From positions 6,163,501-6,227,500 of the forward strand of contig OX387610.1 in NCBI GenBank assembly GCA_947568835.1: 64,000 nt of DNA. Direction: 5' to 3'. Below, piece after piece: positions 24,101-33,100 of this stretch. The notes beneath the pieces were generated by a model that was not told where the DNA came from, made no database searches, and saw only the letters and a list, made by a program, of their open reading frames with translations. Each line of letters opens with the position of its first letter. The stretch's first letter is position 1. The position numbers were made by a program, and so were the translations under genes. The stretch is from Protonemura montana. Taxonomy: Eukaryota > Arthropoda > Insecta > Plecoptera > Nemouridae.

Positions 24101-27100
24101 GATATGAGCGAGGCAGAAACGGAAAGGCAAGGTGATAACAATAACATCAATGATAATAAGAGGAGTGTAATTTGGGACCACTACAAAAAGCTCATTTTTG
24201 TTATTTTATGATCATGCTGTTTAAAGTGTTTATCATGCTATGGTTATCTGTCACAACTCACCCTGATTTGATAAACATGAGATTTATGGGTAAACTTTTT
24301 AGTAGTACATAAAGGAAAGAGACTGGAGCTATAAGTATGTACCTTACGGAATGCTGTTTAACTGGAAGTTAAAACATGCTAAACTTGCTAATAAATACCA
24401 AAGTGACAAAAAAAATTCAGAATTCTGCGTTTTGAAATTGAAATGGAGTGATAAAAGTAGCAATTCGAAAATACTTCGATCAAATGAAATACTTCGACAT
24501 TCGATTCGATATTCGACGTTTTTGTAAATAATTATTCGAAATTCGATTTGGTTTGAAACTGTTGACAATAATTCGATTCGATATTCGATTCGAACTCAAA
24601 AACCACTATTCGCACACCCCTAAGAAATACACATTGATAATTAATAGAATACAAGATACTTTGTTTTACGCACGCAAAAACTAAAATCATACAAGACGAC
24701 TCGAGATTATGATAAACTGGTGATCTTTTAAGATAAAAGAAGACTTCTAAAAACACAGTTGGTTTGTCTTTTCTTTATTTTTTTTTCTTGAAATGTGGTC
24801 ATAAAAGTTAATTGTTAAAGTAGTAACATTGAAACATATCATTCACTGCACTGCAAACAAAACATATAACTATGAGGGTGTACTCAACAGAATTTTCATG
24901 ATAACCATTACTTGCCTTCAAAACACATTCACTCAAAACGGCTAAAAGGCAAGAAGGCTGTTGGCTGGTCTAGTCCTGAAAAAACTATCACGGAGTTTGA
25001 TGAAATGATTAAGATGTCACCAATCGAAAGGAAATCTTCCCCTAATGATTGAGAAATTCACAAAACAATTACCCTGCCTAGCCACCGAAACTCCACTAGT
25101 CCCTGGCAAAAGCCAAACTCTCCCTGTTGTCGCCTAGAACAAACTCTGTCGGCCCAGCATACGAACTCTCGGAAATTTCGGTCATCTCGACCCGCGATCT
25201 CCTCGAGCTGCCCCACCTCGAAAACTCTGAGTCCGGCTGGAACATCGCCCAGCTCGCATTTCCACGTCTCATCTTCTCTGCGACGTCGTACATCAAATAC
25301 AGAATGAACAACTGCACGGAATCAAAAATGCTGAACAAACAGTTAGCCCCAGCGCTCGTCTGGTTTTTATAGTTGGATGTCTCGATCGCTATTGGAATCC
25401 CAAAGAGCAACACGAAGAGCATCGACTTGAACCAGCGGTACCGTTTTAATGAATCGGTTGCGATAGTATCGTCCTCTTTCGCGTTGCAAAACTTGTATAT
25501 GATCGTGGCGAGTAGCCCAAGGTTGACCATCGATATGCTAAAGCCCGGCACAAGAAAGAGCGCATAGGCAGAAACGTCGCCAAGCTCGTAGAAGTGTTTT
25601 TCGTCTTCCCAGAGGACAAGCACGTTCATCGGCACGAGCGGCAAACCCCACGTGAGTCCACTGACGAGCGTTAGCGTGGAGGCAGTTGGTCGGAAAGCGC
25701 CCAGAAGTGCAAGCGCCCCCATCGACGGCCAGAAGTAGTGTGCCAGTCTGGCGTAATGGTCTGCGAAGTTGAAGAACAAGAATGCTGGCCCGTCGACGCA
25801 TGGCTGGATGTCGTTTCGGAGCAGGATCCGAATGACGGCGAGCACGACGTGGACGATTGTCAAGGCTTTCACCTGCAAGATTATTCGGTCTTCGAATTCT
25901 GCGGGCCATTTAAAGTAAGAGCGGTACGTCTTGATGAAAATGACCACTGAGATCATGGCACCCATCAGGTAAATTATTTGAGACTCCTTGAATTTTTTCT
26001 TCGACCAGAAGCCGAGCGATTGTTTGCGCTGATCTTCGATCATTTTTAAACGTTCTGATTCGAGGGCCTGAGCGTTTAAGTCTGTGTGAGAGTTGGAAGT
26101 TTCAAAGCCTGTGCCAGTTACCTGTCCTATTGCCGAGCTACTCCCTGATCCCGAGCTACTTCCTGGTGCCATGCCACCTTCTCCTGCTCCTGATCCCATC
26201 CCTGAGGAACCCGCACCAGGGGAAGTGAACTCATTGCCAACATGACTGTGATAGCCTGGCGGTGCCGTTTTGTCTTCGTCGACGGTCCCTACCAAGACAA
26301 TCTTTGTCACAGCACGCCCAGTAAAGTCACATTGACAAACTGCCAGCGATGGCGCCTGTGTTACGATCAAACACAGCTCGCTTGTCCAGCTCCGGTTACT
26401 GACGTCCCACGATTGACATGAGACGTTGAATGTGGTATTCTCCTTTCTTCGTCTAACGGCGACACTCGCCTGTGCTCTGGAGTTCTCAACCCCATTGAAG
26501 ACTGTGACGTGTCGTTCGAACGTTGTCGTCATCGTCTCAGACTCGGCTGGGTGCACGAGGAATGCCAACCAGTCATTGGGTTGTGATTTGATGTTGGCGA
26601 AGCACAAGACGCTTGGACTCAACGAAAGTGCGTTTAAGACTGCAGATTCGTCAGTCAACTGTCGGAACCTTTCTCCGTGCTCGCCGTCGAAGAGGAAGCC
26701 GACGGGTGAAGCCGTGCTTCTGTGGCTCAACGCTACGAACGTGACAGTGGAATCTTGGGAAGGTGCGTCTTCCTTAGCAGTGCCGTTGAGAGCCATTTCC
26801 GTGCTCGATGTTTCAGTCAAGACTTGGTAAGACTCGGCCTTGTCCCAGGCTTCGTGAATGTAATACCTTGAATCGATCTGTGTCTTTACATCTCCGAAGC
26901 TACGCCCAAATATTGTGAAAAGCTGCTTCGACAGGACGCTCTGCGCTAGTTGGTGAGCCGTCCAAAAGTCCCTGCCTAGCGCGGCCAGCCGCAGATAAAC
27001 GCTCACCGATTGAGGAACAAGGCTGGGTTTCGGTTGCGACCGAGCCGCACTGCAAATGATCGCAAATCCTTCGGTCAAAACTGCGGTGCCGTTCGAGAGA

Positions 27101-30100: not shown

Positions 30101-33100
30101 GGACTTTTGCTTGGTGGGTAAATGACGAAACCGGCAAGGAGACACGTTGCAAACAGCTCGTAATCAAGAGATGTGTACACTAAAGTGTCGTGGATCGTGG
30201 TGGCTGGATCGACGGACTGTTGCTCGGACAGATCGTTAATGATCAGAATGTTTGTATCTTTCGAGTCGTTTTTTCTCCAGTAATTGGCTACTCTAGATAT
30301 ATTGAAAATCAGACCTGCGGTATTGTAGGCGATGGCCGATCTTAGGTTTTTTTCGTCCTCGGTGATGGGGTCGGTGGGCAGAGAATCGTAGGGCTCCACC
30401 AACTCGTTGTATATGGCTGCCAGCTCGCCCAAAGTCTCTAAACTTGGTTCTTTAATAGTCAGCTCGTCGATCGAAAGCAATACACTCCAAAGAGTTTTGG
30501 GCTGTCGCTCGTTTTCTGAACTGTTGAGATTTTTGGTTAATACAAGGCAAGCAAGCAATAAAAGCAAGATTGGTCGATACATCTTGGCTAGAGCTTGGAA
30601 GTCCTTCGACTGAAGGTAAAGTTTGATAGACAAAGGTAGTGAGCTGTGTTTCAAATTGGCTATGGTTTTCGGACGTCATACCTTTGGTTAATTTGTGCTG
30701 ATAAGCTCTGAAAACCCACCCAGGTGTGGCTGTAATTTGTGAATTTTATTCTAACCTTGGTTACTTTGTTACTAACGTCAATGCCACTGATAGCCTGTTT
30801 TTTTATAGATATTTTTTTTTGTTATCATCTTTTTTTTTGATAAACTCACGTAGACTGGAATGACTCGGTTTACTTTTCGATGCATTCTTCCGGCAGTAGA
30901 AGTCAGTTTATATTTTGGGCTGGTTCTAATAAAAGTTTGATTACATCTCAAGCTAGTAACAAATTAAATCGCTATCCCTCAGAATGTGACGTCTTCATTG
31001 AGCCTGTCTATAGGTTTTGTCATAAATGTATAATTTCAACATAAATTATTATGTTCTTTGACCAAATAAGTGCATATCTTAGAAGCTCCCTGATCTGAGG
31101 CCACAACTGGTTACGTTTTGTGGGCCTGAGGGACAAAATATTTTTTGATTTTGGGCAAACTGTCACTTTTTTTAATTCGGTCATTAGAAATAAAATAACA
31201 AAGTCTACACTTTATTTTTGGTAAGGAAAAAAACCTCAAATGTAGTTAATAATACAATAAGAGAAGTATAGACACTTTTCCCATCTGAGTACGTATCTCC
31301 CTAACTAGAGATTCATTATGAAATATAGATGTTACTCTTGCTTTTAACTCTTTGCTATGACTTAAAGTTTAATGTTATGAAAATAATTTCGATTTTAGTT
31401 GTATTGCAAAGTCATTTCAATTGTTATTTACTACCTCTTTCTGTAGATAAGCCTGTAATGATAGCAGCACATGCCATGCCTGTGATTGCTGAGTTTAACT
31501 TTACCCTTGGGAAGTTCCTTGCTATCATCTGTGTGCTAATTGAAGCTTCGTGATAAATTCCAGTTAAATGTTGGTAGGGTATATTATGTGAAACTACAAT
31601 GTAAGTTTTTATAATTGCAAATGGCACGTAAGTAATATGGGTAAACACAGCAAGTAAAATTTACCGTCTCCCCTTTTAATGCAAGACATACGTATTAAAA
31701 ACTTAAATAAAAAATATTATATTACAAATTATAGGTACATATGTTATTTCAATTTATAATTATAAGAACTGAATCTATGAGAGCAATGAAAATTCTTGTA
31801 GACAAAAATAAATCCCTAACCTTTCAGTACAGCGAGGCGACTCTGCGATTTCGAGAGATATCGATCGAAAAGTAGTTGTCAACACTGATAAAAATTATTG
31901 AAGTCACAGTGCTTGCAAGATTCACTTCCACTAGCTGTTCTTCTTGGTGTATAACACAAATCAATAACATCATCTGCTGCGTTCCAGGGCAACGCGGAGG
32001 AGGATGAGTCGCACAGCCGCAAACGCGTGCAGCGGATCTCGTCGCCCGAGAAGTGGGAGATCAAGCAGATGCTGTCGGCGGCTTGCATAGACAAGTCAGA
32101 ACTGCCTGACTTTGACGAGGACACCGGCATCCTGCCCAAGGAGGAGGACGAAGAGGAGGACATCGAGATCGAGATGGTGGAAGACGAGCCGCCATTCCTA
32201 CAGGTATGCTCAGTTAACTGTTGCTTGGCCTCCTTAAATCATCGGCAATCATCTTAGACTAGGGCTTTGAGGACGCGATTTTAATTTCGCTTGAGATTTA
32301 TTTAGCTGTATATGTATATATAAATATATTTTTTTTTTTAATCGGGGGGAGAAGGCTGTGGCACTCCTTTAATTTAAAACTGTAAATAGGGGTAGTATGT
32401 AAATATATTTTTCTTTATATTTGTAGCTCTCTGACTTGGTTTCAGTTTATTTATATTTTATTTTTATACCTAGCGTTATATCACTTTTCTTAATCGCATT
32501 TATTCTAATTCTAAACTGATTTGCTATTTCTGGCCATGTATCGACAATTTCTATTTCTAGCTGGTTATGTTGGGAAATTATAGTGCCCAAGTAAGATCCT
32601 GAGCCAAAGTTTGTGTTAAATCAAATTGTTTCAATTTTAAAATGGTGGCTTCCTCTTCCATGGAAAAATCCTTGGCTGTGACAGTCTTCCAGATTTTTCC
32701 TCGCATCATCTAACAGGGTCTTGTACATTGCTGTTTGCCTCAATTTTTTGAGGTTCCCCACTCCAGTTCATCCACCATTTCCATAGAAATGTGGTCATTG
32801 TGACCTTGCTTGTAGAGACTTCATGCAATGAAATTTTCAAGACAGTATTAGTGTTTATAATAACAAAATACCTTTGCGATCCCATTATCTTTTTTTCAGT
32901 ACCCTCAGTTTGCCTAAAAATGCTCTCTACTTCAAAATGGTCTACCAACCTAACCCCACCACACGATAAAATACCAATACCCTCGTTTGTAACCTTTTGT
33001 TACCATTTGTAACGTTGATCTTGGGGCACGGCGCGCTCATCTACTTGGCTAGTGAGAGGCACAACGTTACCTAGTAATCTTGTAGGTAATGCATACTTAG

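Follow-up and report, generated by a model that had tools for sequence, protein, structure and literature searches.

The GAIN domain of adhesion G protein-coupled receptors (adhesion GPCRs; class B2) is generally viewed as a single, membrane-proximal device for cleavage and activation. Members of the ADGRG subfamily carry one GAIN domain with the HL-T triad plus other N-terminal domains, fly Remoulade and ADGRB3 have one GAIN domain each, and polycystin-1-like proteins have one GPCR proteolysis site (GPS) within a long extracellular part, followed by a membrane part unlike that of adhesion GPCRs. Here we describe a gene in a 64,000-nucleotide stretch of the Protonemura montana genome (contig OX387610.1, positions 6,163,501 to 6,227,500; the window). 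We consider it likely that this gene is a divergent member of an adhesion-GPCR-type family whose ectodomain is a series of GAIN domains, four ancestrally and five here, without the HL-T triad.

Several of the closest described systems are covered in a review (PMC13197933). For the fly, it lists five such receptors, of which two consist of GAIN and a seven-transmembrane (7TM) domain alone. Mayo and Ketchup (ADGRX), treated there as minimal insect adhesion GPCRs, resemble the window family in being arthropod receptors with GAIN and 7TM domains and nothing else recognised, and single-GPS relatives with HLT that are built like them occur in the genome studied here. The window family differs from Mayo and Ketchup in having four to six GAIN domains and in lacking the cleavage triad. 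Some accepted adhesion GPCRs are also without cleavage according to the same review: in Remoulade and ADGRB3 the GAIN domain is kept and cleavage is lost or predicted to be lost, as in the window family, although Remoulade retains the His (H-R-T) that the window family has lost in all modules read. Under force, the GAIN-B part of noncleavable ADGRB3 partially unfolds, and adhesion GPCR activation without dissociation has been described (PMC13197933). Multiple or tandem GAIN domains go unmentioned in the first 300,000 of the 412,533 characters of the review, and we found no paper on several GAIN/GPS domains in one adhesion GPCR among the open-licence papers listed by our searches. Judged from its sequence, the window gene appears to encode a variant of an adhesion GPCR, having the 7TM domain and the kinship to GAIN and departing from the described plan in its number of GAIN domains, its long linker to the membrane and its missing triad.

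Layout and domain homology of the window gene

An earlier sequence-only reading had reported a 1,852-codon open frame at window positions 25096-30654. We recovered the frame at exactly these coordinates and found it to lie on the minus strand, as do all features of this gene given below; the plus strand over the same interval is full of stops. A frame of this length has a chance of about 1e-36 under a random-base model with 52% GC. The GC content at third codon positions (GC3) is 61%, the flanks have 33% GC, and 26 of the 32 blocks of two kb that make up the window are below 43%. The frame opens with TTG; translation probably begins at Met25 (30582), for a protein of 1,828 amino acids from a coding part without an intron (25096-30582). 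By hydropathy, a signal-peptide-like stretch directly follows Met25 (30535-30582), and paralogs have similarly hydrophobic N-termini.

Five GPS-like modules had been claimed, and five are present (residues 243-276, 522-551, 784-812, 1090-1118 and 1413-1442). Their layout is C-x2-[W/Y]...W...C...CxC; four fit exactly, and module 3 has Tyr in place of the first Trp. With the sequence ahead of each GPS included, module 1 (GAIN1) spans 29761-30477 (GPS1 at 29827-29928), module 2 (GAIN2) 28930-29781 (GPS2 at 29002-29091), module 3 (GAIN3) 28120-28956 (GPS3 at 28219-28305), module 4 (GAIN4) 27244-28101 (GPS4 at 27301-27387) and module 5 (GAIN5) 26269-27177 (GPS5 at 26329-26418). These are followed by a segment of about 95 residues between GPS5 and the first transmembrane helix (TM1; 25987-26268), a strongly diverged 7TM domain of adhesion/secretin type (25267-25986) and a cytoplasmic tail (25099-25266). 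The best alignments with paralogs cover residues 60-831, with E 5e-89; two further stretches, 866-1136 and 1169-1455, both match the last module of the paralogs.

To compare the modules with one another and with GAIN domains, we used profiles of modules 1, 2 and 3 from 16 paralogs each and a last-module profile from 15 paralogs plus window modules 4 and 5. In the pairs compared, which comprised all but that of modules 1 and 3, the profiles were mutually homologous over 207-248 columns (module 2 with module 3, E 1.1e-40; 2 with 1, 5.9e-21; 2 with last, 2.6e-13; 3 with last, 8.6e-16; 1 with last, 6.7e-16). As a reference we profiled three proteins of this genome that have a single GPS (HLT is present in two), and this profile matches the solved GAIN structures of ADGRG6 (E 8e-12 over positions 44-327 of the profile) and ADGRL3 (7.9e-8). 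When aligned to this reference with hhalign, modules 1, 2, 3 and last gave E-values of 3.9e-10, 1.6e-14, 6.3e-15 and 2.9e-15 over 205-227 columns; the best E-value among shuffled controls (five pairs, with the columns shuffled 40 times for each) was 0.022. Against a 7TM profile, the module 2 and single-GPS profiles gave E-values of 0.39 and 0.49, and the last-module profile gave 2.7e-5 over 14 columns because the profile ends share sequence. With the Pfam GPS model, 15 of 16 module 2 sequences match at an E-value of 1 or less, and the model passes its cut-off in two paralogs described below (L064 and L065). These comparisons support the view that the window modules would be GAIN domains in series, not bare GPS motifs, in line with the stack of GAIN domains suspected earlier. 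The homology of the last-module profile to the single-GPS GAIN region also places a GAIN domain in front of the 7TM domain, as in class B2 receptors.

At the C-terminus we distinguished seven hydrophobic helices by eye, six of which were resolved by a coarse hydropathy scan, and Pfam 7tm_2 scored 22.7 bits against a cut-off of 20.6. A family 7TM profile of 12 sequences, the window gene's among them, found ADGRG2 first among solved structures (E 6.3e-19), followed by ADGRG4, G6, D1 and L3, so that three ADGRG members (ADGRG2, G4 and G6) are its best matches. The CRF receptors of class B1 matched more weakly than the adhesion GPCRs, at 3.7e-8 and weaker. These matches support a predicted 7TM domain of adhesion/secretin type, the membrane domain of class B2, and agree with the earlier description of the gene as an intronless adhesion-type receptor.

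Cleavage signature and coupling to the membrane domain

Self-cleavage in class B2 receptors depends on the triad H-L-S/T, which we found neither in the window gene nor in the family modules read. In single-GPS proteins of the same genome, CxC-x-H-L-T is present in four of six (two of the four being near-copies), whereas the same register in the multi-module family reads, for example, N-M-S-A or S-L-S-V. Counting the modules that a sequence pattern detects, an in-register cleavage His occurs in 0 of 103 modules of the multi-module family and in 0 of 11 further modules of L064 and L065. A looser scan gave three of 114 hits, all of them out of register, one being CxC-RLT. Because most modules are joined by short linkers or none, cleavage would leave a chain that is held together non-covalently, and the loss of the signature in all modules read would thus fit a covalent GAIN stack.

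A short linker between GAIN and TM1, another feature of class B2, is present in the paralogs and absent from the window gene: the distance from CxC to TM1 is 115 residues in the window gene compared with 17-37 in paralogs, after early strand peaks of three rows were set aside. About 80 residues between GPS5 and TM1, partly Gly/Ser-rich, have no counterpart in the 11 aligned paralogs. The 7TM domain that follows is also unusual. Among paralogs it is the best-kept part of the protein (median identity 58.9% over 105 pairs, compared with 28-38% for modules 1-4 over 120 pairs). Between the window gene and paralogs, median identity is 25-32% for modules 1-4 (16 paralogs) and 29% for the 7TM domain (15 of 16, one truncated row omitted), and the window 7TM has lost residues that most paralogs keep, RETH among them. 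From the insertion before TM1 together with the diverged 7TM domain, we infer that the window gene is a copy with weakened or changed coupling between GAIN and 7TM.

The gene family and its duplication history

To determine how common this architecture is, we searched the same genome with one module 2 sequence and scored 140 of 167 candidates. At least 119 matches were obtained and grouped by hand into at least 53 loci on eight contigs, at least 17 of which lie on contig C14; this count excludes a canonical gene with a single GPS and any fragment no longer than 215 amino acids, and several modules were seen in part of the loci. An open frame of at least 1,100 codons is present in at least 41 of the 53 or more loci, although some frames break off before or in the 7TM domain; one paralog with four modules (C5_7656329) stops at a TAG inside it. 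Searches with the 7TM domain and with Pfam 7tm_2 gave at least 119 matches (118 of 163 candidates scored) and at least 127 matches (150 of 167 scored), respectively, and both totals pool genes with a single GPS, exons and, probably, receptors of class B1.

By pattern, 16 of 23 long frames have four modules, two have five (the window gene included), one has six and four have three. Among these 23, a set of 21 open reading frames of at least 1,360 amino acids comprises 16 with four modules, the window gene with five and four with three; L064 and L065 make up the rest. Three of these last four have a module 3 match at the missing place and the fourth has a match at the place of the last module; therefore, all four probably have four modules. 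The six-module member, L064 (G000:C2:5618600-5624700), encodes an intronless protein of 2,023 amino acids in which the first four modules are closely similar and the 7TM domain follows the sixth, and L065 is a frame of 1,800 amino acids with five modules. One GAIN domain is the usual architecture of class B2 rather than part of its strict definition, and with five the window gene goes beyond it. The sequence-only reading, which called five GPS modules unusual, was incomplete in that the gene is a variant within a large family in which most members have four modules, one other has five and one has six.

A protein-database search with the window protein scored 7,985 candidates and gave no match with an E-value of 10 or less. 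This negative is weak evidence, given that the search requires 5-residue words in common and proteins of comparable length. With a four-module paralog there was one weak match, to a jellyfish adhesion GPCR, and a single-GPS control protein gave seven, one from Ephemera danica.

To trace the history of the modules we built a tree on 63 rows out of 83 prepared, for which the bootstrap was unsettled and several supports were weak. Modules clustered by position (module 1, 100/99; module 2, 94/82; module 3, 94/70; last, 73/76), and window modules 4 and 5 were sisters (100/99), nested (100/98) among the last modules of genes with four. Since modules group by position, the family probably had its four modules before it spread, and the last module would later have been doubled in the window lineage. 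The earlier claim that modules 4 and 5 were freshly duplicated does not hold. They share 39% amino acid and 52% nucleotide identity, with 56%, 62% and 40% identity at first, second and third codon positions, and silent sites are saturated; by these values, the duplication is old. The inner modules of L064 and L065 closely resemble one another, which marks a separate and more recent amplification. In a 7TM tree, rebuilt without C15_8933824 (whose last GPS was missed by the pattern, giving a mis-sliced row), a 100/99 branch split 23 multi-module 7TM domains from nine single-GPS ones, consistent with one origin of the multi-module family. The exact place of the window gene in this tree is unsure because its branch is very long.

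We also estimated nonsynonymous and synonymous rates (dN and dS) in six close paralog pairs. The ratio dN/dS was 0.28-0.70 in the ectodomain and 0.15-1.10 in the 7TM domain and fell below one in 11 of 12 comparisons; the value of 1.10 stems from a pair with almost no changes. The window gene itself has no close relative with which to form such a pair.

Several further frames were observed during these searches. The four-module paralog L054 691-2717 (G000:C4 near 5632200), a frame of 2,266 amino acids, has a cytoplasmic tail built from 24 copies of an 84-bp unit, each copy encoding 28 amino acids rich in His, Asp and Glu. We also noted dozens of 7TM frames with a length of about 600-700 codons; many of these lie on C14, and many have one GPS match. 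The single one read (C14:2885134) has also lost HL-T. In a long frame at G000:C2:19527391 (L045), one GPS (THFS) is followed by many hydrophobic stretches; by eye, the frame is polycystin-like.

Competing readings and other observations

The reading of the window gene as a divergent member of a family with serial, triad-free GAIN domains has to be weighed against several results. In the window protein, the Pfam GPS model reached 16.3 bits in three stretches, below its cut-off of 22.5, and the GAIN model was unmatched, as it also was in the three single-GPS relatives from the same genome. Against solved structures, the module 2 profile matched weakly (ADGRG1, E 0.012; ADGRG3, 0.02) and the last-module profile had no significant GAIN match (best ADGRG3, E 0.28). 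The GAIN fold consists of a helical subdomain A and then a beta-sandwich subdomain B that ends in the GPS. AlphaFold, given module 2 together with the other four modules of the window gene, returned helices followed by strands, but at a mean pLDDT of 45.6, too low to count as proof, and the 7TM domain alone gave 41.5. Pfam 7tm_2 was found in just six of 12 family 7TM domains at E up to 1 and was unlisted for the L064 protein, where the genome search did find it. The branch of the window 7TM is very long (4.12), and the third module of C15_10377345 reads CxC-RLT, one residue early.

If the serial GAIN reading is right, the GAIN chain would stay one covalent piece, and this extended ectodomain could serve in adhesion, in ligand binding or in bearing force. 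Most paralogs have a last, uncleaved GAIN strand that leads nearly straight into TM1 and could be a built-in agonist acting without dissociation. If its coupling is indeed weakened, the window gene may encode an adhesion or ligand-binding protein more than a signalling receptor. Tentatively, stepwise opening of serial uncleavable GAIN modules might read force or ligand, the number of modules (four, five or six) being evolvable across dozens of genes in one arthropod lineage; we would not yet call this probable. The basis for such a mechanical role is the unfolding of ADGRB3 and the activation without dissociation described above (PMC13197933). A family of four to six GAIN domains without the cleavage triad raises the question of roles for GAIN beyond cleavage, and the natural series of module numbers would provide a test bed for GAIN as a mechanical or a ligand-binding unit.

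The family could instead be a chemosensory or recognition repertoire of fast-diversifying receptors, in which the variable GAIN stack serves as a ligand-binding surface and not as a mechanical element. The number of loci and their concentration on C14 speak for this, as do the lower identity between paralogs in the modules than in the 7TM domain (28-38% compared with 59%), the varying module number, and an ectodomain dN above that of the 7TM domain in six of six close pairs, with dN/dS following in five of six. We regard a repertoire as possible though short of probable, and it is compatible with serial GAIN domains lacking the triad.

It is unlikely that the window gene is degenerating towards a pseudogene. 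The low identity of its 7TM domain to paralogs, its long branch and the loss of residues such as RETH would fit decay, and in-frame stops do occur in other family members. However, its 1,852 codons are free of stops, GC3 is 61%, the ectodomain is about as conserved as between paralogs, and modules 4 and 5 agree better at first and second codon positions than at third. That the modules are mere GPS-like disulfide motifs on unrelated spacers, as the weak Pfam and PDB matches and the poor AlphaFold model of module 2 might suggest, is highly improbable, given profile homology over 205-227 columns, far past the roughly 40 residues of the motif, and shuffled controls that stayed clean.

Elsewhere in the window, a tRNA-Ser (cga) gene lies on the plus strand at 5439-5514, and there is a second, weaker tRNA-like match on the minus strand at 23089-23161. 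In the rest of the genome, a COX1 match at G000:C4:5760925-5762262 scores the same as that in a small contig with mitochondrial genes (C34), and the C4 match probably stems from a recent transfer of mitochondrial DNA to the nucleus. The mitochondrial gene order in this genome is I-Q-M-nad2-W-C-Y-cox1-L2-cox2-K-D, which fits Pancrustacea; the many window blocks below 43% GC and a COX1 that looks conserved speak against a thrips, a group with GC-rich genomes and divergent COX1. The contig start at G000:C13:1-3000 (L046) is a long (AAACC)n array.

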